64,000 nucleotides of DNA from Aquificaceae bacterium (GTDB taxonomy: Bacteria; Aquificota; Aquificia; Aquificales; Aquificaceae): assembly GCA_037481935.1 (NCBI GenBank), contig JBBFKQ010000001.1:80741-144740 (forward strand), in the 5' to 3' direction. Positions 52,566 to 64,000 of the stretch are shown one piece after another; the first letter of the stretch is position 1; the number at the start of each line of letters is the position of its first letter. The position numbers and the translations under genes are program-made. The notes beneath the pieces are model-generated. The model ran no database searches. It was not told the DNA's origin and worked only from the letters and a program-made list of their open reading frames with translations.

Positions 52566-54404
52566 ATGGACTACAGACCGCAAGAGATAGAAGCCAAATG
52601 GCAGAAGATATGGGAAGACATGAAGACCTTTGCATCAAAAGAGGAAGGAAACAAATCCTACGTGCTTGAGATGTTTCCCTATCCATCAGGCAGGATTCAC
52701 ATGGGGCATGTGAGAAATTACACCATTGGGGATGCTATTGCACGCTTTCTGAGGTTCAGGGGATATTCTGTCCTCCATCCCATGGGCTGGGATGCCTTTG
52801 GACTACCTGCAGAGAACGCCGCCATAAAGCATGGCTTTCATCCTGCAAACTGGACATACCAGAACATAGCCTACATGAAAAAGCAGCTCAAAAGCCTTGG
52901 CTTTTCCTACGACTGGAGCAGGGAAATCGCCACCTGCAGTCCTGAATATTATCGCTGGAACCAGTGGCTCTTTTTGAAGTTTTACGAGCATGGGCTCGCC
53001 TACAGAAAGTCTGCAGAGGTAAACTGGTGTCCCAACGATGAGACGGTGCTTGCTAACGAGCAGGTAGTTGATGGAAGGTGCTGGAGGTGTGGCACTCCCA
53101 TAGTGAGAAGAGAGGTGCCCTCCTGGTATCTGAAGATTACCGCCTATGCGGAGAGGCTTTTAGAGGACCTAAAAGAGCTTGAGGGTAGGTGGCCCGAACG
53201 GGTGATAGCCCAGCAGAGGAACTGGATAGGAAGGTCTGAAGGAGCAGTGCTCAAGTTTTTCGTGGAAGACATCCCCATAGAGGTCTTTACCACAAGACCA
53301 GATACGGTTTTTGGTGCAACCTTTGTAGTGCTGGCTCCCGAACATCCTCTGACCCTTGAGCTGGCAAAGAAGTCTGAAGACTACCAGAGGGTGAGAGCCT
53401 TTGTGGAAAGGATGAAGCAGAAGTCCACCAGGGAGAGGGGAATTGAAGAAGAAAAGGAAGGTGTGCCACTGGGCGTGTATGCAACAAACCCGGCCACAGG
53501 GGAGAAAATACCCGTCTGGACCGCCAACTACGTGCTATACGAATACGGCACTGGCGCCATAATGTGTGTGCCAGCCCACGACCAGAGGGACTACGAGTTT
53601 GCGGTCAAATACGGACTACCAATCAGGCACGTGATAAAGCCCAGGGAAGGAGACCTCCCGGAAGGCAGAGCCTACGAAGAACCGGGAGTGCTCATAAACT
53701 CAGGACAGTTTACGGGCATGGACTCTCTGGACGCAAAGAAAGCCATCACCCAGTGGCTAAAAGAGAGGGGTCTTGGAGAATTCAGGATTACCTACAGGCT
53801 CAGAGACTGGAACATATCTCGTCAGAGATACTGGGGCACTCCCATACCCATAGTCTACTGCGAAAACTGTGGAACTGTGCCTGTGCCAGAAGACCAGCTT
53901 CCGGTGCTTCTGCCAGAAAGGGTGGAGATAACAGGACATGGGAACCCTCTTGAGAAGGTGCCAGAGTTTGTCAATACCATCTGCCCGAAGTGCGGAAGAC
54001 CTGCAAGGAGAGAAACGGACACCATGGACACCTTCTTTGACTCAAGCTGGTATTTCCTCAGGTTCTGCGACCCAGTAAATTCAGAAAAGCCCTTCGCACC
54101 GGAGAAGGCCGAGTTCTGGATGCCTGTAGACCTCTACATTGGTGGTATAGAGCATGCGGTCCTTCACCTTCTTTACGCACGCTTTTTCCAGAAGTTTCTG
54201 TATGACCTTGGACTGGTAAAGGACAAAGAGCCTTTTCTTAGACTGGTCACTCAGGGCATGGTGCTGAAAAGGTGGGTGAGCGTGGAGAGGTTTCTTGAAC
54301 ATCTGAGCAGAAAATACGGCGTCGATTCCGCTGAAGACATTGAACTGGAAGAGCTTGTAAAACTCATAAAGATTGACATGGGTAAGGGTAACTTTCAGAG
54401 ATGA
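52566..54404 (+). CDS. leuS: Leucyl-tRNA synthetase alpha subunit (split LeuRS)
   Basis: This is the N-terminal half of class I LeuRS. It has the HIGH-type motif [13 protein letters not shown] (about 40-52), [17 protein letters not shown], the zinc region [23 protein letters not shown] (residues beyond 150) and the editing domain with [13 protein letters not shown] and [15 protein letters not shown]. The chain ends at 612 residues after VTQGMVLK and an LeuRS-insertion-like tail. The KMSKS loop and the anticodon domain are absent, and the next gene is unrelated and on the other strand. This matches the alpha subunit of the split Aquifex enzyme; the beta subunit must be elsewhere. Confidence 0.95.
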
Positions 54405-55348
54405 AGCCCTGTGTATCCCTCCCTTTTAACAGAAGCCACAAGGAGAACAATTGAAGCAAAAAGGGCACATAGCTGAAAAGACCAGAAGCTCATGAACTTC
54501 AGATAAGCAAAAGGCGAACCCCCATACAGGAGTAGCAGACTTGAAAAATTATCCAGAAAGGAGAAAAGAAAAACAAAAAGGCCAAGCGTAATACTTTTTT
54601 TCCTGTCAACACCCGCAAAAGGTAGCAGATGAATCAGAGCAAGAGAGTAAAGGGCCATAGCCAGAATATGGGGGTAGAAAACCTTGAAAACACCCTCAAA
54701 GCTTTTGGGCTTTAGAAAAAGCTCCGGATTGCCCAAGAAGTAATCTCTTATTCCCTGAACTCCAAAACCCATCTTTGCGTGAAAGTTCACAAAGTTAGAA
54801 AGAATAAAAAAAATGGAAAAAAAGGAAAAAAGCAGGCTAAGGACTTTTAACATAGAGACCTTTGGAGGTTTCATGTTACCAAAAGATAGCTTCCATCCTG
54901 TGTATATCAGCATTATTGCTAGTAGAATTTGATAGAGCACAAAAAAGAAAAGCTTTAACCATACAACCCAGAAAGCATTCAGTAGTAATATTAAGAAGTC
55001 TACAGAAAGGTAAGAAAGAGCAGAAATACTGACCAGCAACACCAGAAGTCTTTTAAAAGCGCTGTTTGAATTAAAAAGGGAAAAGACAGAAGAAAGCGTC
55101 AGTATTATAAAGCCATGAAGAAACACACCCACATGGAAGTCTTCAGAAATCTGAGCTAGAGAAACCCTTTCAGGAAACTCAGGGTCCATGAAGAAGTATT
55201 TCACCAGGCTGTTGTAAGAAAAGCCATATTTGGAGTAAAAGTGAAGCCAGGAAGCCAGCCAGAAAAGAGTTGTAAAAAGGAGAAAAAAGATAACCGCATA
55301 GTATAGAGGTTTATTCCTTCTTATGTCTGCGGATACAAAAAATCTCAC
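54395..55348 (-). CDS. Multi-helix membrane protein with a two-fold internal repeat
   Basis: The 317-residue protein has about eight hydrophobic segments and is not a recognised family. Two halves resemble each other: [21 protein letters not shown] (near 37-57) matches [21 protein letters not shown] (near 188-208), each followed by a helix carrying His ([25 protein letters not shown]). The conserved His, Gly and Asn/Asp-Pro-Glu positions suggest haem b or other cofactor binding in the membrane. It is coupled by a 4-bp overlap to the FMN-binding protein, so a membrane electron-transfer unit is plausible. Confidence 0.7.
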
Positions 55349-55887
55349 CTCTGCACTCCAAAAAGCACCTGCCAGAGGGCAAGCACCTTTCTGGCGTTGT
55401 CCGTTATGGCTCTGGCGGTCAGGGTTGCCCCAGTTATGTTGGGTATGTCCCTTCTAAGCCTTACGGGGTCTTTTGAGAGCTGTTTGCCTGCAAAGAGCCT
55501 GAGCCAGTTGTCTTCTGGCATGTATTCAAGAGGCTCATAAAAGGCGAGCACTTCCACCACATCAAGCTTGCCGTCGGGAGTAATCGTGTAGAGCACCACT
55601 TCGGGGTGGGTTCTGACCCTGTGCATGTCTACATAGCCGTAGGCTATTATCTGCCCGCCTTTTCTGACTATATACCAGGAGGCAAGCCTTGACTCCATCT
55701 TTGCGCCCGATATCTTCTGAACCTCCTCCACCTGCTCTCTGGTGAGAGTTATGTTTCTGACCTCTATCTGGGAGCCGGGGTATATCTGAGACAGTGCCTG
55801 CTCCGGTCTCCTGAACTCCTTTGCCCATAAAAGGTTTAAGAATAAGAGCACATGGATAAAAAAAAGCACAGAACTCACCAAAGCCAT
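55345..55887 (-). CDS. Periplasmic FMN-binding domain protein (RnfG/NqrC-like)
   Basis: An N-terminal hydrophobic segment (about 3-21) exports or anchors the 180-residue protein. The C-terminal half is an FMN_bind domain with IPNITGATLTARAITD (about 149-164), where the Thr of SGATxT-type motifs receives covalent FMN from ApbE. The rest (ASWYIVRKGGQIIAYGYV, EVLAFYEPLEYMPE) is also typical. It lies between a porin and a membrane protein and probably shuttles electrons across the membrane. apbE is not in the window. Confidence 0.85.
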   Translation of the reverse strand: MALVSSVLFFIHVLLFLNLLWAKEFRRPEQALSQIYPGSQIEVRNITLTREQVEEVQKISGAKMESRLASWYIVRKGGQIIAYGYVDMHRVRTHPEVVLYTITPDGKLDVVEVLAFYEPLEYMPEDNWLRLFAGKQLSKDPVRLRRDIPNITGATLTARAITDNARKVLALWQVLFGVQR

Positions 55888-55956
55888 CTCAGCCTCCTGA
55901 ACTTTCTCATAAATTCTATTCCATAAGCCATAACTTTAAAGACCTTGTTTTTACAC

Positions 55957-55982
55957 TAAAAGCCCCTCCCCGCAGGGAGGGC
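55957..55982 (-). terminator. Rho-independent terminator after the porin gene
   Basis: On the minus strand GCCCTCCC-TGC-GGGGAGGGGC forms a GC-rich stem with one bulge, followed by TTTTAG. It lies 20 nt beyond the stop of the porin gene and 70 nt before the FMN-binding gene. Confidence 0.7.
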
Positions 55983-56001
55983 ACAACACAAGGAAGAGCC
56001 A

Positions 56002-57402
56002 TCAGAACATAAAGCCGAGGGTGAGCCTGTATTCGTTCTCATCCTTTCTTGGAGAGCTGTAGTTGAGCCTTGCATAGTCTGCCTTTATGGCAACAAGTGG
56101 GTGGGGCTTGTAGGAGAGTCCGAGGTTGTAGACCTTCAGCTTATGACCGCTGGGCTTGAGGAAACCAGAGGGCACTTTGCTGTGGGTGTCAAAGTCCTCG
56201 TATATGCCAAAGACGTAGAGCTCCTGATTCTCTGGCCCAAATAGCCTGAAAAGGTCGTAGGCGACCTGCACATAAAAGCCCTTCTGCTCCTCTGGCATTA
56301 TGTTGTTTCTGTTGGCACCGGTGTTGGGGTTTTGTATGTTGTTTCCAAAGAGATCTCTGGACATCTTCAGGGCATCATCAGTCTTTACTAAGGCCCCCAC
56401 GAACCTTATGTCCCATCCCGCATGTTGCCACCAGAGGTGAGGTGAAAACATGGTCAGCGAGCCAACCTTTGAACCTCTTCTCAGACCCAGCTGAGAGTCT
56501 GAGCCACCCTTAGACTGAACATCTGCATAGACAAAGGAACCTCCCACTCTTAGGTTGAGGGGAAGGTTTATGTCAACTCTTCCAGTAAATCCAAGCCTGT
56601 CCGCAACCGCCCTTGCCCCCCTCTGTCTGACGGTTTTTAGGGGCTCGGTTACATCGTAGTCGCCACCACCTTTCAGCATAAGTCCGTTTATCACATAAAA
56701 CCTGTAGTCTACTGGACCAACGGCTCCGTAAGCTCCAAGACCCATCTCTTCCCAGGTAGACATCATTATTCTTCTCTCAAAGAAAGGCCTTTCTGCGGAG
56801 GGGAATGTAGGAGACTCATGCACTTCGTTCACTATACCCACGGGCATGAGAAGAAGTCCTCCCCTGACCCCGAACTCAGGTCTGAACTGATAGTCCAGAT
56901 ATGCAAGCTCTGCCTTGAAGTATCCTCCACCAGTGCCATGTCCTGCCGAGGTTGATGCATGCTCCAGCTCAAGTTCAGAATTAAACTTCAGCTTCTCATC
57001 AAAGGCATAACCAAGGTAGAGGATTATCCTCTGCATGTTGGCTATGGACTTGGCTCCACCCCTTGCGTTCACATCGTTATGTCTGAAAACGAGCTCACCA
57101 TAGCCACCTATGGAGACACCCCTTGGGTTGAAGTGCACCTTGGACGCCGCAGGACCAAGACCAGAGTAGGACTTAATCTCAAGTTTTGGCATGGCAATAT
57201 CAAGCCTGAGCTGTCTTATCTCCTCCTTGAGGGCTTCAGTTTCCTTCTTTGTCTCTTCTGCCTTCTTCTGTTCTTCTTTGAGCTTCTGAACTTCCTGCTG
57301 GAGCATTCTTATCTGCTCCTCAAGCTGACGTATCCTGTCCTCCGCCGGCTGGGCAAAGACTGTGGTTGATAGTAGGGCAGTGGCTAAAAGAACTCGCTTC
57401 AT
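56002..57402 (-). CDS. Coiled-coil outer-membrane porin
   Basis: A signal peptide (about 1-17, ending VFA) is followed by a coiled coil (about 22-70, heptads of L, E, K) like the trimerising N-terminus of some porins, then about 390 residues of alternating strands ending in the aromatic LTLGFMF. GGYGELVFRHND and GGLLLMPVGIVNEVHESPTF resemble the porin families of phosphate- or carboxylate-selective type found in Aquificales. The substrate is unknown. It has its own strong promoter, an AAGGAGGTC ribosome-binding site and a terminator, so it is probably abundant and monocistronic. Confidence 0.82.
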   Translation of the reverse strand: MKRVLLATALLSTTVFAQPAEDRIRQLEEQIRMLQQEVQKLKEEQKKAEETKKETEALKEEIRQLRLDIAMPKLEIKSYSGLGPAASKVHFNPRGVSIGGYGELVFRHNDVNARGGAKSIANMQRIILYLGYAFDEKLKFNSELELEHASTSAGHGTGGGYFKAELAYLDYQFRPEFGVRGGLLLMPVGIVNEVHESPTFPSAERPFFERRIMMSTWEEMGLGAYGAVGPVDYRFYVINGLMLKGGGDYDVTEPLKTVRQRGARAVADRLGFTGRVDINLPLNLRVGGSFVYADVQSKGGSDSQLGLRRGSKVGSLTMFSPHLWWQHAGWDIRFVGALVKTDDALKMSRDLFGNNIQNPNTGANRNNIMPEEQKGFYVQVAYDLFRLFGPENQELYVFGIYEDFDTHSKVPSGFLKPSGHKLKVYNLGLSYKPHPLVAIKADYARLNYSSPRKDENEYRLTLGFMF

Positions 57403-57505: not shown

Positions 57506-60500
57506 CTATGCATAGCTTCTTTTTCTCAAACCTTCAAACAAGCCTGCCAGATATGGTATCAAAAGAATCACGCTCAGAAGCCAGAAACCAGAGAGAGTAT
57601 GGATCTGTCCCACATCATGGATAGTGCTGACCCTCTGCAGCAGTGCGCCCCTTACAGATGGCTCGTAGCTACCGGCTCCCGCACGGGAAGAAGGCACGAC
57701 CGGTCTGCCAGTGCCGTAGCCTGCCATAGTGATGCCCTGGGATAGCCTTTCCTCTATTTGCTTAGAGGCTGAGGAGTTTTCTCTGAGCCACTTTTTTGTG
57801 CCCAAGTTGTATTTGTCCTGGAGATAGACCTCTCTGAATTCTTTCCAGATGGGGTCTCTTACCACCTGAGGTGCCACCACCTGCCAGCCGTAGAGGTTGT
57901 TAAGGGTGTTTAAAAGCTCGTTGACGCCCGAGTAGCCTTCTTTCATAAGGGCTTTTACGTATTCTGGGTTGAGGTATCGGGCTCTTACTTCCTGAAGGAG
58001 GAACTCCTCTGCGGTCTGCACCTTTGCGGTGCTTCTAAGGTTGGCTATAAGCACCTCTGGCTTTCTACCTGAGAGCACCTCCACTGTCAGAGCAAGACCC
58101 CCAAGATACTGGAAGGGGTCGTCGGTGGTGAGCATGCCATATAGGTTGGAGCTTCTTGAGAGAAGCACCGCATCCGTATCCTTGAGGTTTTCCTCAAAAA
58201 GCCCATGCACCTTCTGCGAGTGAAGTCCCTCGTCGTAGGCAAAGCCCATCCTGTGCAGGAAAAGCCCCGAAAGTTTTTTCTTATCCTTTGTCTGGAAGAC
58301 CGCATCATCCAGCCCAGAGCCGTAAGCTCCGCTCTCGTTGGAAAAGCTCCTTATAGTGGCGAGCCTCTGAGCCTGCTCATGAGGGTAGCCCTTTTTAAGA
58401 AGCATCGCCATCAGTTTTTGTGTGTTCTGCCTTACGAAGTTCTCCTCTTCCTCAAGCTCTGCCACAAGCCTTACTGCCTGATTTATCAGGTTCATTAGGT
58501 TTGGAAAGTGGTCCCTGTATAGCCCCGTGGCAGATACCACCACGTCTATGCGCGGACGCCCGAGTTCTTTCTTAGGTATTATCTCAAGCCCTACCACCCT
58601 TCCACCATCATCCCACCTTGGTCTTACACCAAGGAGGTAAAGAACCTGAGCTTCCACCACACCAAGGTGTCTCATGGTTTCCACAGACCACAGAGTAAAG
58701 GCAACCTTCTGAGGATATCTTCCGTGCCTTTGGTGGTAGTCTATGAGCCACTGGTCTGTGATTTCCACCGCAGTTTTCCATGCCTGAGGTGTTGGCACAC
58801 GCTGTGGGTCAAAGCCGTAGAGGTTTCTACCCGTAGGCAGGCTGTCGGGGTTTTTTATGGGGTCTCCACCAAAAGAGGCAGGTATGTATCTGCCCTCAAG
58901 GGCTGAAAAGAGAGATACAAGCTCCACGCCTGCGTCAAGCCTTCTGTAGAGGTCTATAACTGTCTCACAGTATGCGTCTGGAGAGCCTTCCATGCATTGA
59001 AGCACCTTTGCAAAGGCTTTGGAGCTCTTTATCTTGTCTACGGGTTGAGCCATAAACTCCTCATAGGGTTCCTTTTCCCACATTTTTATCCATTCCCTGC
59101 CCAGCATCTGCAGTATGGTGAGGGCAAGGAGTTCTGCGTCCTTTGTCTTGCCAAAGGTGTGAAGCCCCAGAGGCACATTCTGAGTGGCTATTTCGTGTAT
59201 GTGGTTGTGGAGTTTTTCAGAGAAGCTCTCAAAATCTTTCAGTATCTGGGTGGTGTTTTTATAGCCCAGGTCTCTGGCTATGTTTGCCCTCATGGCTTTT
59301 TGAGCTATCTCCCGCCTTATGGTCTCTTTCAGTCTTCCCTCTGACTGGGCTTCCTTGTGAAGTAGCTGGTGAAGTTCTTCCAGCTCTCCGTAGGTGCCAG
59401 AGGGTGCAAAGGCTGGGGTCTGATAAGAGATGATAAGGGCTCTGCCCCTCCTTCGGGCGTTGAGGGCTTCTCCCACGTTGTCTACGATGTAAGGGTATAT
59501 GACGGGCTTTGTGCCAAGGGTGAGGTAGGGGTAATCCCACAGGTCAAGGCCTCTCTCCTTGCCGGGCGTCCACTCCTGAGTGCCGTGGGTGCCAAAGTGC
59601 AATATTGCATGGCTGTTTTTCTGCAGGTAAAGGTAGAAGGCAAGATAGTAGTGAGAGGGTGGAATCTTTGTGCTGTGGTATATCTCTTTACTCCTTAGGT
59701 AATCCATGCCTCTGGGTGCAAGGGGCAGGAGCAAAAAGTTGCCCGATTTAAGCACAGGAATGGTGAAACATCCCTTCTTAAGGTATGGGTCCCTCTCCGG
59801 TCTTCCCCAGTAGCTCTCTATGTCCTTCCTGACCTTTTCTGGAAGGCTCTCATACCAGTTCAAGTATTCCTCAAGGCTCAGACAATCAAGAAGGTCTGTA
59901 CTCACGGGCTTTGAATAGTAAAGCCCTATCATTTGGGTGAGCTTTGACTGCAGGTCTCTCTCTGAATAGGTTTCAACCCTGTAGCCCCTGTCCTTTGCGG
60001 TTTTCAGAAGTAGTTCAAGGCTTTTTATGACGTTCAGGTTGGAGGCAAGGATGTTCCTCTCTCCGGGCGGGTAGTTGTAGTAGACTATAGCTATTTTTTT
60101 CTGGGAGTTTTCAAGGCTCTGGAGGTCTCTCCAGGCTTTAGCTCTCTTTACCAGATTTTCCACCATATGGAGCAATGGCTCTTTGAGGGGTTGGTCTGCA
60201 CCCACCACTGTGGGGTCGATAGCCCCCATATACTCTGGCAGTGTGAAGTGGAAGGGTATTGAGGTTACTGAAATGCCCTGGGGGTTCTTTTTCCAGTCTT
60301 CTTTTCTGCCCCTGTAGGTGATACCCTGAAGCACTGGAAGAGCCAGTTCTTCAAAGGCTTTCTTTTCTTCTTCGTATGCAAAATACATGAGCCTGAGGTT
60401 AACAACCACGGAAGGGAGTGGTCTTCCCTCTAAGATGAGTTTGTGAAGATGCCTTCTGAGCCCCTCAGTCTCTGGATAGTAGAAGCCCACCGCAGGCAGG

Positions 60501-61063
60501 CCCTCTCTTTCTGACTGAACTATGATGCTGTCTACAATGGCGGTGTTCTCCGCCACCAGGTCTGAGCGGTGAAAAAGCACGAGCAGTGGTTTTTCAAAGT
60601 CCTGAGGCAGATTTTCCATCACGCCCCTTGCAGGATGGTAAAAACCCACCGCAGGAAGCTCTCTGGGTGGCCCTGCAGGCAGACCTGCAAAAGCTTTGAA
60701 CATGTTTTTAAAGTTTTCCCTGCCACCTGAACTGTAGTAGGGCAGGAGCTTGCTCAGAACCTGCGGGTCTCCTGCGGTTGGAGGGCTCAGAAACACCAAC
60801 CTTTTGCCAGTTAGCTTTTCCTGAAGGGCTTTTCTTATCTCCTCAGGAGGCGTATCCACAAGGTAGATGTCTGCCTCTGGCAATTGCAGGCTTTTGAGGT
60901 CTTCCGCCCTCAGGTATACGCCCTGCACTTCAAGACCCACCTCCTGTGCACTCTGCAGGAGAAGGTGGAGTTTTCTGGGAGGGTTTGGAAAGCTCACCAC
61001 GAGCACTAACTTCTGGGCAAAGCCAAAGCTCAGTAGAACCAGTAGTAGAAAAAGGAGCCTCAT
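57506..61063 (-). CDS. CobN/HmuS-like chelatase, exported and membrane-anchored
   Basis: The 1185-residue protein is a CobN/BchH-family large chelatase subunit. The conserved core includes HFGTHGTQEWTPGKERGLDL (about 490-509), the IYPYIVDNVGEALNARRRG block, ASFGGDPIKNPDSLPTGRN and VVVSATGLYRDHFPNLM. Unlike cytoplasmic CobN it begins with a signal peptide (RLLFLLLVLLSFGFAQ) and ends with one membrane helix (LSGFWLLSVILLIPYLAGLF) and a basic tail, so the body should lie in the periplasm. It is the last gene of a TonB operon and is coupled to a DUF2149 gene. Such CobN relatives occur in hmu haem-uptake loci of Bacteroidetes (HmuS). Metal insertion or removal on an imported tetrapyrrole is the likely role; the substrate is not known. 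Confidence 0.87.
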   Translation of the reverse strand: MRLLFLLLVLLSFGFAQKLVLVVSFPNPPRKLHLLLQSAQEVGLEVQGVYLRAEDLKSLQLPEADIYLVDTPPEEIRKALQEKLTGKRLVFLSPPTAGDPQVLSKLLPYYSSGGRENFKNMFKAFAGLPAGPPRELPAVGFYHPARGVMENLPQDFEKPLLVLFHRSDLVAENTAIVDSIIVQSEREGLPAVGFYYPETEGLRRHLHKLILEGRPLPSVVVNLRLMYFAYEEEKKAFEELALPVLQGITYRGRKEDWKKNPQGISVTSIPFHFTLPEYMGAIDPTVVGADQPLKEPLLHMVENLVKRAKAWRDLQSLENSQKKIAIVYYNYPPGERNILASNLNVIKSLELLLKTAKDRGYRVETYSERDLQSKLTQMIGLYYSKPVSTDLLDCLSLEEYLNWYESLPEKVRKDIESYWGRPERDPYLKKGCFTIPVLKSGNFLLLPLAPRGMDYLRSKEIYHSTKIPPSHYYLAFYLYLQKNSHAILHFGTHGTQEWTPGKERGLDLWDYPYLTLGTKPVIYPYIVDNVGEALNARRRGRALIISYQTPAFAPSGTYGELEELHQLLHKEAQSEGRLKETIRREIAQKAMRANIARDLGYKNTTQILKDFESFSEKLHNHIHEIATQNVPLGLHTFGKTKDAELLALTILQMLGREWIKMWEKEPYEEFMAQPVDKIKSSKAFAKVLQCMEGSPDAYCETVIDLYRRLDAGVELVSLFSALEGRYIPASFGGDPIKNPDSLPTGRNLYGFDPQRVPTPQAWKTAVEITDQWLIDYHQRHGRYPQKVAFTLWSVETMRHLGVVEAQVLYLLGVRPRWDDGGRVVGLEIIPKKELGRPRIDVVVSATGLYRDHFPNLMNLINQAVRLVAELEEEENFVRQNTQKLMAMLLKKGYPHEQAQRLATIRSFSNESGAYGSGLDDAVFQTKDKKKLSGLFLHRMGFAYDEGLHSQKVHGLFEENLKDTDAVLLSRSSNLYGMLTTDDPFQYLGGLALTVEVLSGRKPEVLIANLRSTAKVQTAEEFLLQEVRARYLNPEYVKALMKEGYSGVNELLNTLNNLYGWQVVAPQVVRDPIWKEFREVYLQDKYNLGTKKWLRENSSASKQIEERLSQGITMAGYGTGRPVVPSSRAGAGSYEPSVRGALLQRVSTIHDVGQIHTLSGFWLLSVILLIPYLAGLFEGLRKRSYA

Positions 61064-61065
61064 GG

Positions 61066-61398
61066 CTACTCCTCCGGCACGTAAACCAGCGTTCCATCGG
61101 GCAGGCGGTAAGTGGCACCCACTCTTACACCCCTTCCTTCTCCTATCTGCTGGCTCTTTACATACCTCTCCAGCTTCTGCCCTTTCTTTATGACCAGCTC
61201 CATGTTTTCCCTGCCGGGGTTTTTCACAAGCACATAATCTTCCTTTGTGAAGGGGTTGAAGGGACTGTTTACCAGCACCAGAAGAAGGGCGATAACGACC
61301 GCCAGAAAGGCGTCTATCATGTTTACCACCGAGAGCATGGGGTCTGTTTCTTCCTCAAGCCTCTCCAGTTCCTGAAGAAGGATATCTTTGAGGTTCAT
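61066..61398 (-). CDS. DUF2149-like membrane protein linked to CobN
   Basis: This 110-residue protein has one membrane segment (about 24-44) after NMIDAF and a C-terminal domain with QIGEGRGVRVGATYRLPDGTLVYVPE, which I recognise as the DUF2149 pattern. The layout (short cytoplasmic N-terminus, helix with a polar Asp, small periplasmic domain) resembles ExbD. DUF2149, an ExbB-like protein and CobN commonly occur together. It ends 2 nt before the cobN ATG and overlaps the ExbB-like gene by 4 bp. Confidence 0.82.
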   Translation of the reverse strand: MNLKDILLQELERLEEETDPMLSVVNMIDAFLAVVIALLLVLVNSPFNPFTKEDYVLVKNPGRENMELVIKKGQKLERYVKSQQIGEGRGVRVGATYRLPDGTLVYVPEE

Positions 61399-61829
61399 CT
61401 CTTCTCCTCCAGTCTCTTTATGTCCTCTAAAAGCCAGCGTCTTCGCACTGTGGAGGTGTAGTAGGTTATGCTGGCAGATATAAGAGAGAGGCTCACTGCC
61501 CCAAAGGCAAAAGAGAGCTTCCTGCCAAGCTCCTGCGTGTTGCCCTCCGCAAGGGCAAGAAGGGCCGGTCCAAGAGGTATAAGTGTTCCCACAAGCCCCA
61601 GAAGAGGGGCAATCCTTGAGACAAGCCTTGAAGGCTCCATAGCCTTCAGTCCTCTCAGGTAGAGCTCCTCTGGGGGGAGTTGTGTTGGATGATTTTTCCC
61701 CATTGCTCTCTTTATGGCCCTTGCAGTAAAGAGCCCAAGGTCAAAGAGCGAATACAGAAACATGAGCCCTATCGATGCGTAAACAGGGTATTGAAAAAGC
61801 ATTACAACCTGATAGAAAACCTTCTCCAT
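61395..61829 (-). CDS. Second MotA/TolQ/ExbB proton-channel protein
   Basis: This 144-residue protein has three hydrophobic segments and the family signature in APLLGLVGTLIPLGPALLAL (near 88-107) and FAFGAVSLSLISASITYY. It is distinct from exbB at 62990 and is paired with the DUF2149 gene (4-bp overlap), as if the two formed a separate proton-driven unit for the CobN-like protein. The start shares bases with the tonB stop. Confidence 0.87.
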   Translation of the reverse strand: MEKVFYQVVMLFQYPVYASIGLMFLYSLFDLGLFTARAIKRAMGKNHPTQLPPEELYLRGLKAMEPSRLVSRIAPLLGLVGTLIPLGPALLALAEGNTQELGRKLSFAFGAVSLSLISASITYYTSTVRRRWLLEDIKRLEEKR

Positions 61830-62635
61830 CAGTTATCCTCCTTGAGAGAAAACTGCACGGGCAAAAGCAGGTTAACTTTTCTTTCTGCAACCGGAAAGTT
61901 TCTGTGTGCCTTCTGGACTGCTCTAATTACCGCCTCGTCCAGAACTCGGTAGCCAGAGCTCTCCCTTAACTCAAGCCCGCATAGATTCCTGCCTTCAAGG
62001 CATATAAGCACCACCACCCTCCCCTCCCATCCCCTTAGCCTTGCCAGAGGTGGATACTCAAGATGGCTTTTCACAACAGACCTCACCACTCCAAAGTTCT
62101 GCCTGTGATAGAGCAGGTTGTAGTCTCCCTCTCCCACCCTCCCTGAACCCGATGGCTCGGCTCCTACCTCAGCTCCACCGCTCCCCACCTTACCATGGGC
62201 AACTGCACCCACCTGCGTCTCCTGTCTAGTGCTCTTATGGCCTTCTTCAGAGCTGGCGGATTTCTGTGGGGTCTTCTCATGGGCTTCTGCAGGTGTTGAC
62301 TGCTCCTTTGCTTCAGCCTTGCTGAGGAGTTCCTCGGATGTGGGTGTTTTTTGAAGTTTTTCTTCTACCTGCTGTTGAAAACTATCGGCTTTAGCCGGTG
62401 TGTGTCCGCCTGTATCTCCCTTCGCCTTCTGACTTTGCCCTCTATGGGTTATGTTTCTTACCTCCTCGCCCAGGTTGTCATATTCAGGATGTTTAATATT
62501 GGGTGGAGTGTAATAAAGCTCCAGCTCTACCTGAGTTATCTGTGACGCGTCAAACCTCAGCATGAAGAAGATGAGGACAAAAGCAAGGCTGTTAAAGAAA
62601 AGGGAAAGTTGCAGAGCCCTTGTATCCAACCTCAT
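61829..62635 (-). CDS. tonB: TonB energy transducer
   Basis: The 268-residue protein has one N-terminal membrane helix (about 8-28), a long linker rich in Glu, Lys, Gly and Ser (about 60-180), and the C-terminal TonB domain with YPPLARLRGWEGRVVVLICL (about 192-211) and the end RKVNLLLPVQFSLKE. It transmits the proton-motive force to the outer-membrane receptor encoded upstream. The linker lacks classical proline repeats. It overlaps exbD by 4 bp. Confidence 0.9.
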   Translation of the reverse strand: MRLDTRALQLSLFFNSLAFVLIFFMLRFDASQITQVELELYYTPPNIKHPEYDNLGEEVRNITHRGQSQKAKGDTGGHTPAKADSFQQQVEEKLQKTPTSEELLSKAEAKEQSTPAEAHEKTPQKSASSEEGHKSTRQETQVGAVAHGKVGSGGAEVGAEPSGSGRVGEGDYNLLYHRQNFGVVRSVVKSHLEYPPLARLRGWEGRVVVLICLEGRNLCGLELRESSGYRVLDEAVIRAVQKAHRNFPVAERKVNLLLPVQFSLKEDN

Positions 62636-63009
62636 GTCCTTCTCACCTGCAGGGAAACCCTCTGAAAGTTCATGCCCTTTAGAAGGTCAAGAAGGCTCAC
62701 AAGAGACTGCACGGAAGCATCCCTGTCCGCCCCCACCACTATGTGCGTGTTCCTGTCGTAGTTTGAGAGCCTGTTCAGGAGAGTTTCTTTACTTATCCTT
62801 TCCCCCTTCCAGTATAAGTTTCCGTGCCTGTCCACATAGAGCTCAACGGGGCTCTCCACTGACCGCTTTTGATGCTCTGCAGAGGGCAGGTTCACAGGCA
62901 AAGACCCCACCGCCACAAAGCTGGCACCTATGAGGGCAATGGTCAAAAGCACCAGCATCACATCCACCAGAGGAATCACATTCATGTAGTCAATCTCCCT
63001 TTCTTGCAT
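62632..63009 (-). CDS. exbD: ExbD biopolymer transport protein
   Basis: This 125-residue protein has one membrane helix with the proton-carrying Asp in NVIPLVDVMLVLLTIALIGA (Asp16) and a periplasmic domain ending GMNFQRVSLQVRRT. It partners ExbB. It overlaps exbB by 20 bp and tonB by 4 bp. Confidence 0.93.
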   Translation of the reverse strand: MQEREIDYMNVIPLVDVMLVLLTIALIGASFVAVGSLPVNLPSAEHQKRSVESPVELYVDRHGNLYWKGERISKETLLNRLSNYDRNTHIVVGADRDASVQSLVSLLDLLKGMNFQRVSLQVRRT

Positions 63010-63409
63010 GCTTTTCCTCCCACTCGTAAAGCAGTTCCCTTGCCCTTCTTACAAGGTAGTTGTATAAAACCGTTGCCGGCACTGCCACCAGAAGCCCCAG
63101 CGCAGTGGCTTTCAGAGCCAGAGCAAGCCCCGTCATTATCTTGAGCGTGTCTCCCATACCCTCCTTTCCCATTATGTAGAAGGTTTGCATGATGCCCAGC
63201 ACCGTGCCCATAAGCCCCACATAAGGAGCGTTGGATGCTACCGACGCAAGCACATAAAGACCCCTTGTAAGCTCTTTTTCCAGCCTTGCCCTTGTAGAAA
63301 AGTCTGACAGGTTTATCCTTTTGTAGAAAAAGAGCCTCTCAAAAAACACATACAGCCCCACAAGGCTCATAAGCCCCATAATACCCATAAACACATACTC
63401 CAGCCACAT
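62990..63409 (-). CDS. exbB: ExbB/TolQ-family proton channel
   Basis: This 139-residue minimal ExbB has three membrane segments and the signature APYVGLMGTVLGIMQTF (about 60-76) and GLALALKATALGLLVAVPATVLYN (about 92-115). It lacks the long cytoplasmic insertions of E. coli ExbB. Its ATG shares bases with the receptor stop codon (TGATG). Confidence 0.93.
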   Translation of the reverse strand: MWLEYVFMGIMGLMSLVGLYVFFERLFFYKRINLSDFSTRARLEKELTRGLYVLASVASNAPYVGLMGTVLGIMQTFYIMGKEGMGDTLKIMTGLALALKATALGLLVAVPATVLYNYLVRRARELLYEWEEKHARKGD

Positions 63410-64000
63410 CAGAATGTACCCCTCAGGCCCGCATAGTAGAAACTTCCCAGTATGGGGAGGTCTCTGTCCTTTTTATTCCCCAGGTTATCCACACCACCAT
63501 AAAGCTCAAGACCCTTCCAGAGCTTCTGGCTTGCAGACAGGTGCAGCAGGGTAAAGTCCTTCTCCTGAGTGGGCGTCCAGAGCAGGTCAGAGGTATGCTC
63601 AACGGCGAGGGATATGCGTGTTTTTTCTAATGGCCTGACGCTTACCTCTCCTACAAGCCTGTGTCTTGGTCTCTGAAGAAGCCTCTTGTCCTCTTCTTCA
63701 TCTCTTGCCTCCAGGTAGGTATAGGACAACCTTCCGCCGAGCCAGTTTAAAGGAGCAAAAAAGCCCGAAAGCTCCACTCCCTTGAATTCAGCCTTTCCTA
63801 CGTTCCTGTAAGTAAAGACCTGAGCGTTAGGCGGCGGAGATGGCACGTTCAGGGTTAATGGAGGGCAACCGGGTGTGTTTACAAGGCAAGTTTCTATGAG
63901 GTCCTTGGCCCTTGTGTAGAAGAGGTTTACCTTTAATGTTGCCTGTCTGCCAAAGTCCTTTTCCAGCCCAAGGTCTACACCATCGGTTTTCTCGCTCTTG
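63409..64000 (-). CDS. TonB-dependent outer-membrane receptor (C-terminal part, 5-prime end beyond window)
   Basis: The frame is open to the window edge and gives the last 196 residues of a receptor barrel. It begins SEKTDGVDLGLEKDF, the pattern of the late strands of BtuB/FepA-type barrels, continues with alternating strands such as FKGVELSGFFAPL and GGRLSYTYLEARDEEE, and ends in YAGLRGTF with the terminal Phe required for barrel assembly. A loop with two Cys (ETCLVNTPGCPP) may form a disulfide. The plug, TonB box, signal peptide and any riboswitch lie outside. It heads the exbB-exbD-tonB-cobN operon in view. Confidence 0.9.
   Translation of the reverse strand, partial: KSEKTDGVDLGLEKDFGRQATLKVNLFYTRAKDLIETCLVNTPGCPPLTLNVPSPPPNAQVFTYRNVGKAEFKGVELSGFFAPLNWLGGRLSYTYLEARDEEEDKRLLQRPRHRLVGEVSVRPLEKTRISLAVEHTSDLLWTPTQEKDFTLLHLSASQKLWKGLELYGGVDNLGNKKDRDLPILGSFYYAGLRGTF

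Follow-up and report, generated by a model that had tools for sequence, protein, structure and literature searches.

The seven genes at the end of the analysed DNA (a stretch of 64,000 nucleotides, called the window in the following) probably belong to an iron-acquisition operon, in which an iron chelate would be imported by a TonB system and the metal would be released by an exported CobN-like protein; the probability of this reading was estimated to be roughly 60%. The TonB-dependent receptor, together with ExbB-ExbD-TonB, would import the chelate into the periplasm; an iron porphyrin is the likeliest candidate, a catecholate-type siderophore the second. The membrane-anchored CobN-like protein would bind it in a cleft of the CobN/HmuS type and act in the reverse direction of a chelatase. 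The freed Fe2+ would then enter through FeoB and be stored in a ferritin-like protein, whose gene is one of those at the start of the locus. An AAA+ ATPase would not be involved, and a pair of small membrane proteins, ExbB' and DUF2149, would probably power the chelatase, rather than the receptor, by the proton-motive force. The analysis also delimited a large family of exported chelatases, which are routinely annotated as "cobaltochelatase CobN", yet are neither CobN nor HmuS.

Gene order and predicted topology of the chelatase

The genes of the run and the putative operator are as follows:

57506-61063, minus strand: CobN-like chelatase, 1185 aa; Pfam PF02514 CobN-Mg_chel, 930 bits, full length
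61066-61398, minus strand: DUF2149 (HmuV-like); PF09919, 89 bits
61395-61829, minus strand: second, small ExbB-like protein (ExbB', HmuU-like); PF01618 MotA_ExbB, 26.6 bits
61829-62635, minus strand: TonB; PF03544 TonB_C, 39 bits
62632-63009, minus strand: ExbD; PF02472 ExbD, 83 bits
62990-63409, minus strand: first ExbB, the canonical energiser of TonB systems; PF01618, 100 bits, and NCBIfam exbB2 above cut-off
63409-64000, minus strand, cut by the window edge: TonB-dependent receptor; PF00593 TonB_dep_Rec, 193 bits
Putative Fur-type operator of the locus: sequence as TTGATATCTAATATCAA

The full-length receptor has 647 aa (L002 8150-10093) and reaches to about window position 65352. The first five junctions, from the receptor to DUF2149, are overlaps of 1, 20, 4, 1 and 4 bases, and a gap of 2 bases separates DUF2149 from the CobN-like gene. 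The coordinates and the Pfam matches thus bear out the seven overlapping or abutting genes of the preliminary description, which had listed the receptor first. The receptor is not the first gene, since genes for an exported dsrE-like protein, a ferritin-like protein and a DUF2325 protein lie ahead of it on this strand. The arrangement is not a matter of chance, because it recurs, minus exbD, in G036, another genome of the genus, and because the set of receptor, CobN-like protein, ExbB' and DUF2149 is present in 66 of 80 homologous loci.

Downstream of the CobN-like gene, at 54395-57402, genes for a porin-like protein, an FMN-binding protein with a TGAT flavinylation-type motif and a protein with eight transmembrane helices follow on the same strand; in most of the family they lie beside leuS. 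The FMN-binding protein was considered as a dedicated electron donor. This idea was rejected: its gene occurs in 47 of 64 family genomes irrespective of cobN, and it keeps the company of the porin and eight-helix genes where cobN is absent. It is therefore regarded as a neighbour and not as a dedicated component. For HmuS, NADH was the reductant in vitro (PMC12583661), and the electron donor in vivo is still unnamed (PMC13227078).

The CobN-like protein was predicted to be exported and membrane-anchored, and not cytoplasmic like canonical CobN. Its N-terminus, MRLLFLLLVLLSFGFA, has the hydrophobicity of a signal peptide, with the cleavage site, read by eye, before a Q, and its C-terminus contains the hydrophobic helix FWLLSVILLIPYLAGLFEGLRKR as a predicted anchor. 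The AlphaFold model (pLDDT 78) has helices at residues 2-13 and 1157-1184 with the chelatase body between them, and the domains I-VI lie between signal peptide and transmembrane helix. Both topological elements had been proposed before, and both were recovered in this check of sequence and model.

The fold of the model matched HmuS (9d26, TM 0.76) and CobN (7c6o, TM 0.73) about equally well in Foldseek, and that of BchH with a TM of 0.67. Like canonical CobN and BchH, the protein has the class-I chelatase fold and the invariant His and Glu. As in HmuS and BtuS, the HFGTHG motif is kept (H489-G494), and its catalytic-type His493 matches the essential His538 of HmuS. The proposed kinship to HmuS was supported. 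Other key positions differ. The active-site set is S844/D982/Q985, and LTTDDPFQYLGG is found in place of the HmuS motif LSLDHxxEFMGG, with Asp982 and Gln985 where HmuS has His1209 and Glu1212. At the positions of the HmuS haem ligands Met79 and His254 the alignment showed other residues, and the Met-rich insertion of domain IV is absent (82 aa with 4 Met versus 154-343 aa in HmuS). With these differences the protein, although it has the HmuS/CobN fold, falls outside HmuS as that family is defined (PMC12583661). The three cleft positions are Ser/Asp/Gln in the host protein and, with few exceptions, in its close relatives, Gln/His/Glu in HmuS and in a branch with P. aeruginosa and Azospirillum, Arg/Asp/Gln in CobN (Arg/Asp/Ala in one member) and Thr/His/Asp in BchH. 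The Gln/His/Glu set is thus common to HmuS and to the exported chelatases of three loci (L094, L114 and L115, versus L097-L099) that are not its sisters in the tree, by convergence or as an ancestral state.

Family placement and the receptor

None of the CobN and BchH equivalog cut-offs was passed by the CobN-like protein. It is 69% identical to its counterpart in G036, about 60-61% to that of Caldimicrobium, about 38-42% to those of Proteobacteria and 26% to HmuS. A tree of the body domains, built without the archaeal DUF2149-linked CobN-like proteins, resolved three clades (SH-aLRT 99-100 each): one of canonical CobN, one of HmuS and one of exported proteins linked to TonB. The host protein fell into the third, PA1923-like clade (SH-aLRT 99), which is characterised by export and by adjoining genes for a small ExbB and DUF2149. 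AU tests rejected a forced union of this clade with HmuS (p 1.78e-5) as well as with canonical CobN (p 0.00096). By these sequence comparisons the host chelatase is neither a canonical CobN nor an HmuS, but a member of an exported TonB-linked family that is common in Proteobacteria. This family is widespread and largely uncharacterised; the only studied relative in the clade is the zinc-regulated PA1923 of P. aeruginosa (PMC4542158, PMC8531726). The P. aeruginosa locus PA1922-PA1925 likewise combines receptor, exported CobN-like protein, DUF2149 and small ExbB (loci of this type are L114 and L115), but it is Zur-regulated (PMC4542158), has the Gln/His/Glu active site and lies on a different branch.

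Canonical CobN and BchH, by comparison, are encoded in B12 or chlorophyll operons and are driven by the AAA+ partners CobST or ChlID. A search of the host genome for such a partner with the TIGR02442 profile yielded just two weak partial matches far below the cut-off, in support of the earlier interpretation. The lack of this partner and the link to iron are shared with HmuS and BtuS. HmuS takes iron out of haem with NADH and without ATP (PMC12583661). The removal of metal from an imported chelate, as suggested earlier, is the likely job of the CobN-like protein. An operon that unites a receptor with a small ExbB, DUF2149 and a CobN-like protein that is exported and anchored is also seen in the Bacteroidota hmuYRSTUV systems (PMC12583661, PMC6460266). 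The host operon differs from them by its own ExbB-ExbD-TonB and by the ferritin-like and DUF2325 genes at its head, and HmuY and HmuT are absent.

The receptor appeared weakly haem-like from its sequence. TonB-hemin is its best NCBIfam model (188 bits versus a cut-off of 317), but it stays below every curated NCBIfam cut-off, and models of B12 receptors match weakly, too. The best PDB match is CirA, a catecholate receptor, followed by the haem receptor PhuR, and no His is present between the FRAP-like and NPNL boxes. It is less probable that the operon serves haem scavenging proper, i.e., that the receptor imports haem and a divergent HmuS yields protoporphyrin and Fe2+. The receptor matches to TonB-hemin and PhuR would fit, the HFGTHG motif and an R-S-S-N-L-Y motif are closer to HmuS than to CobN, and in B. 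fragilis the use of haem iron is established to require FeoAB and the periplasmic CobN-like proteins BtuS1/2 (PMC6460266). On the other side, the haem-site residues, the second histidine and the Met-rich insert of HmuS are missing, the AU test speaks against a joint clade, HmuY and HmuT have no counterpart, and the receptor is CirA-like and below the curated haem cut-off.

The small ExbB and DUF2149 proteins

DUF2149 was modelled with one transmembrane helix followed by a small beta domain. Among 80 sequences Asn26 is present in 100% and Asp29 in 99%, and in ExbB' Thr82 was found to be invariant. The conserved transmembrane Asp of DUF2149 resembles the proton-carrying Asp of ExbD and TolR. DUF2149 was nevertheless not accepted as a proven ExbD homologue: hhalign gave a probability of 17%, confined to the transmembrane stretch, and the weak DUF2149 model had no Foldseek match.

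To 69 of the 80 loci that were fetched with the family, CobN, small ExbB and DUF2149 are common. ExbB'/DUF2149 lie at most 100 bases from cobN in 50 of these 69 loci. A TonB receptor is present in 66 and absent from three, and six contain a separate ExbB/ExbD alongside the pair. On a Comamonadaceae plasmid the trio of CobN, ExbB' and DUF2149 has no receptor within the 18 kb read. As a control, a DUF2149 match was also obtained in the archaeon Methanosarcina acetivorans, whose cells lack an outer membrane. Since the trio occurs without a receptor or beside a separate ExbBD, and DUF2149 in M. acetivorans, the pair follows the chelatase and not the receptor. Because it tracks cobN, ExbB'/DUF2149 may be the motor that drives the chelatase. 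The earlier proposal that the pair is the power source was plausible and has gained support from this pattern across the loci, and we infer the role from it.

A generalisation of this motor role can be advanced tentatively: in the exported CobN-like family, class-I chelatases may exist in a proton-driven form, in which a stator-like ExbB'/DUF2149 motor replaces the AAA+ ATPase and draws on the proton-motive force for opening the cleft or ejecting the metal in the periplasm. Which metal is handled (Fe, Zn or Ni) would depend on the receptor and on the triad of the active site. It is also conceivable, in the same tentative sense, that the pair is a mere auxiliary TonB energiser for the receptor and that the chelatase has no motor. 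HmuU/HmuV are drawn in this role, HmuS is active in vitro without HmuUV (both PMC12583661), and ExbB' belongs to a proton-channel family. Arguing against it, ExbB-ExbD-TonB is already encoded in the host operon, the pair goes with cobN rather than with the receptor, and DUF2149 is found in an organism without an outer membrane.

The published views of the HmuU/HmuV function disagree, the receptor being powered according to one (PMC12583661), and haem being transported across the inner membrane by HmuTUV according to the other (PMC13227078). The motor role of ExbB'/DUF2149 offers a testable answer. As the operon also holds a complete ExbB-ExbD-TonB, the powering of the receptor and of the chelatase are genetically separable, and the purification of a thermophilic chelatase with its membrane partners may be easier.

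Metal specificity and distribution of the cassette

Iron was the best-supported metal on the genomic evidence, and most close relatives in the exported family are tied to it. It is favoured by feoAB in Caldimicrobium, by Fur-type boxes, by a shared operator and by the genes with which the locus begins, among them the ferritin-like and DUF2325 genes. In Caldimicrobium, the nearest relative, cobN is followed on one strand by genes for FtsX-like and HlyD-like proteins, feoA, feoB and an OprB-like porin gene. In proteobacterial homologues the best Fur-box match before the receptor scored 13.8/18 on average versus 10.9 in shuffles, and in 16 of 58 it reached at least 16/18; Zur boxes were not enriched before the receptor in the relatives scanned. 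A putative Fur-type operator, TTGAWATNNNATWTCAA, lies directly before DUF2325. It occurs in five genomes of the genus, some of which lack the cassette; G000, G036 and G037 have the exact sequence, and G043 and G046 match it at 12-13 of 14 positions. The same operator is exact in Caldimicrobium before DUF2325-FeoA-FeoA/GGDEF. In Uliginosibacterium ferritin-like and DUF2325 genes again lie beside the module, and almost every good genome of the phylum encodes FeoB (87 of 88), the host included. The preliminary description had regarded a haem-scavenging system as unexpected in an autotroph; this does not hold for the present reading, because iron and not haem would be sought. Long DUF2325 proteins of about 430 aa were also seen near the module in L064 (5147-6460) and 12 other loci, many of them betaproteobacterial.

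It is improbable that the host module strips a Ni, Zn or Co chelate, as may be the case with zinc in P. aeruginosa and, judged by nikR in Azospirillum and a hyp operon in Runella, with nickel. The neighbourhoods and regulators of these relatives (PMC4542158, PMC8531726) and the NiFe hydrogenase of the host would be in line with such a role. However, the proteins of the P. aeruginosa type and of Azospirillum lie on a separate branch with Q/H/E instead of the S/D/Q of the host, the nearest relative has feoAB, and the host NikR is found with a nickel ECF transporter and the hydrogenase under a different promoter, which also speaks against the nickel ligand considered earlier. In Azospirillum brasilense the plasmid genes for CobN-like protein, ExbB' and DUF2149 adjoin a FecCD-type ABC transporter, a siderophore-type receptor and nikR (L094 4566-16524). 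On a plasmid of Runella slithyformis, genes for a receptor, a NicO/HupE-like permease, ExbB', DUF2149 and a CobN-like protein lie inside a hypABFCDE hydrogenase-maturation operon (L100 1641-15899), making the latter protein a candidate nickel de-chelatase. From these ties of the exported family to zinc or, by neighbourhood, to nickel, the module would seem to be a general device for metal chelates, with metals that differ among its members.

The handling of a cobamide, with import of a corrinoid and removal or insertion of cobalt in the periplasm, had also been proposed and is very improbable: the relationship to CobN, the shared D/Q pair of the active site and the weak matches of the receptor to B12 receptor models are outweighed by the lack of a cobalamin riboswitch in the host genome (RF00174 scan), of adjoining cob genes or an AAA+ partner, by the replacement of the Arg and the NQDNREHD motif of CobN and by the rejected CobN placement in the tree.

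Within the phylum, which gene content and genome size suggest to be Aquificota, PF02514 was confined to a single genus (3 of 136 genomes), and the nearest CobN-like sequence outside the phylum is from Thermodesulfobacteriota, which is consistent with a spread of the cassette by lateral transfer between hot-spring bacteria. The cassette has been both gained and lost. G037 carries a deletion scar: between dsrE and the porin gene (L141 10328-10561) the receptor gene is reduced to its first 44 codons with the signal peptide, and the remainder of the cassette is gone. In G036 the operon is interrupted between exbB' and DUF2149 by an antisense toxin-antitoxin pair of the HicA type (L103 14493-15030), in which HicA was recognised by Pfam and HicB by eye. 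A decayed copy was also seen on a plasmid of Paracoccus alcaliphilus (L095 3671-4555), where the N-terminus of the receptor is directly followed by DUF2149, and CobN and ExbB' were lost.
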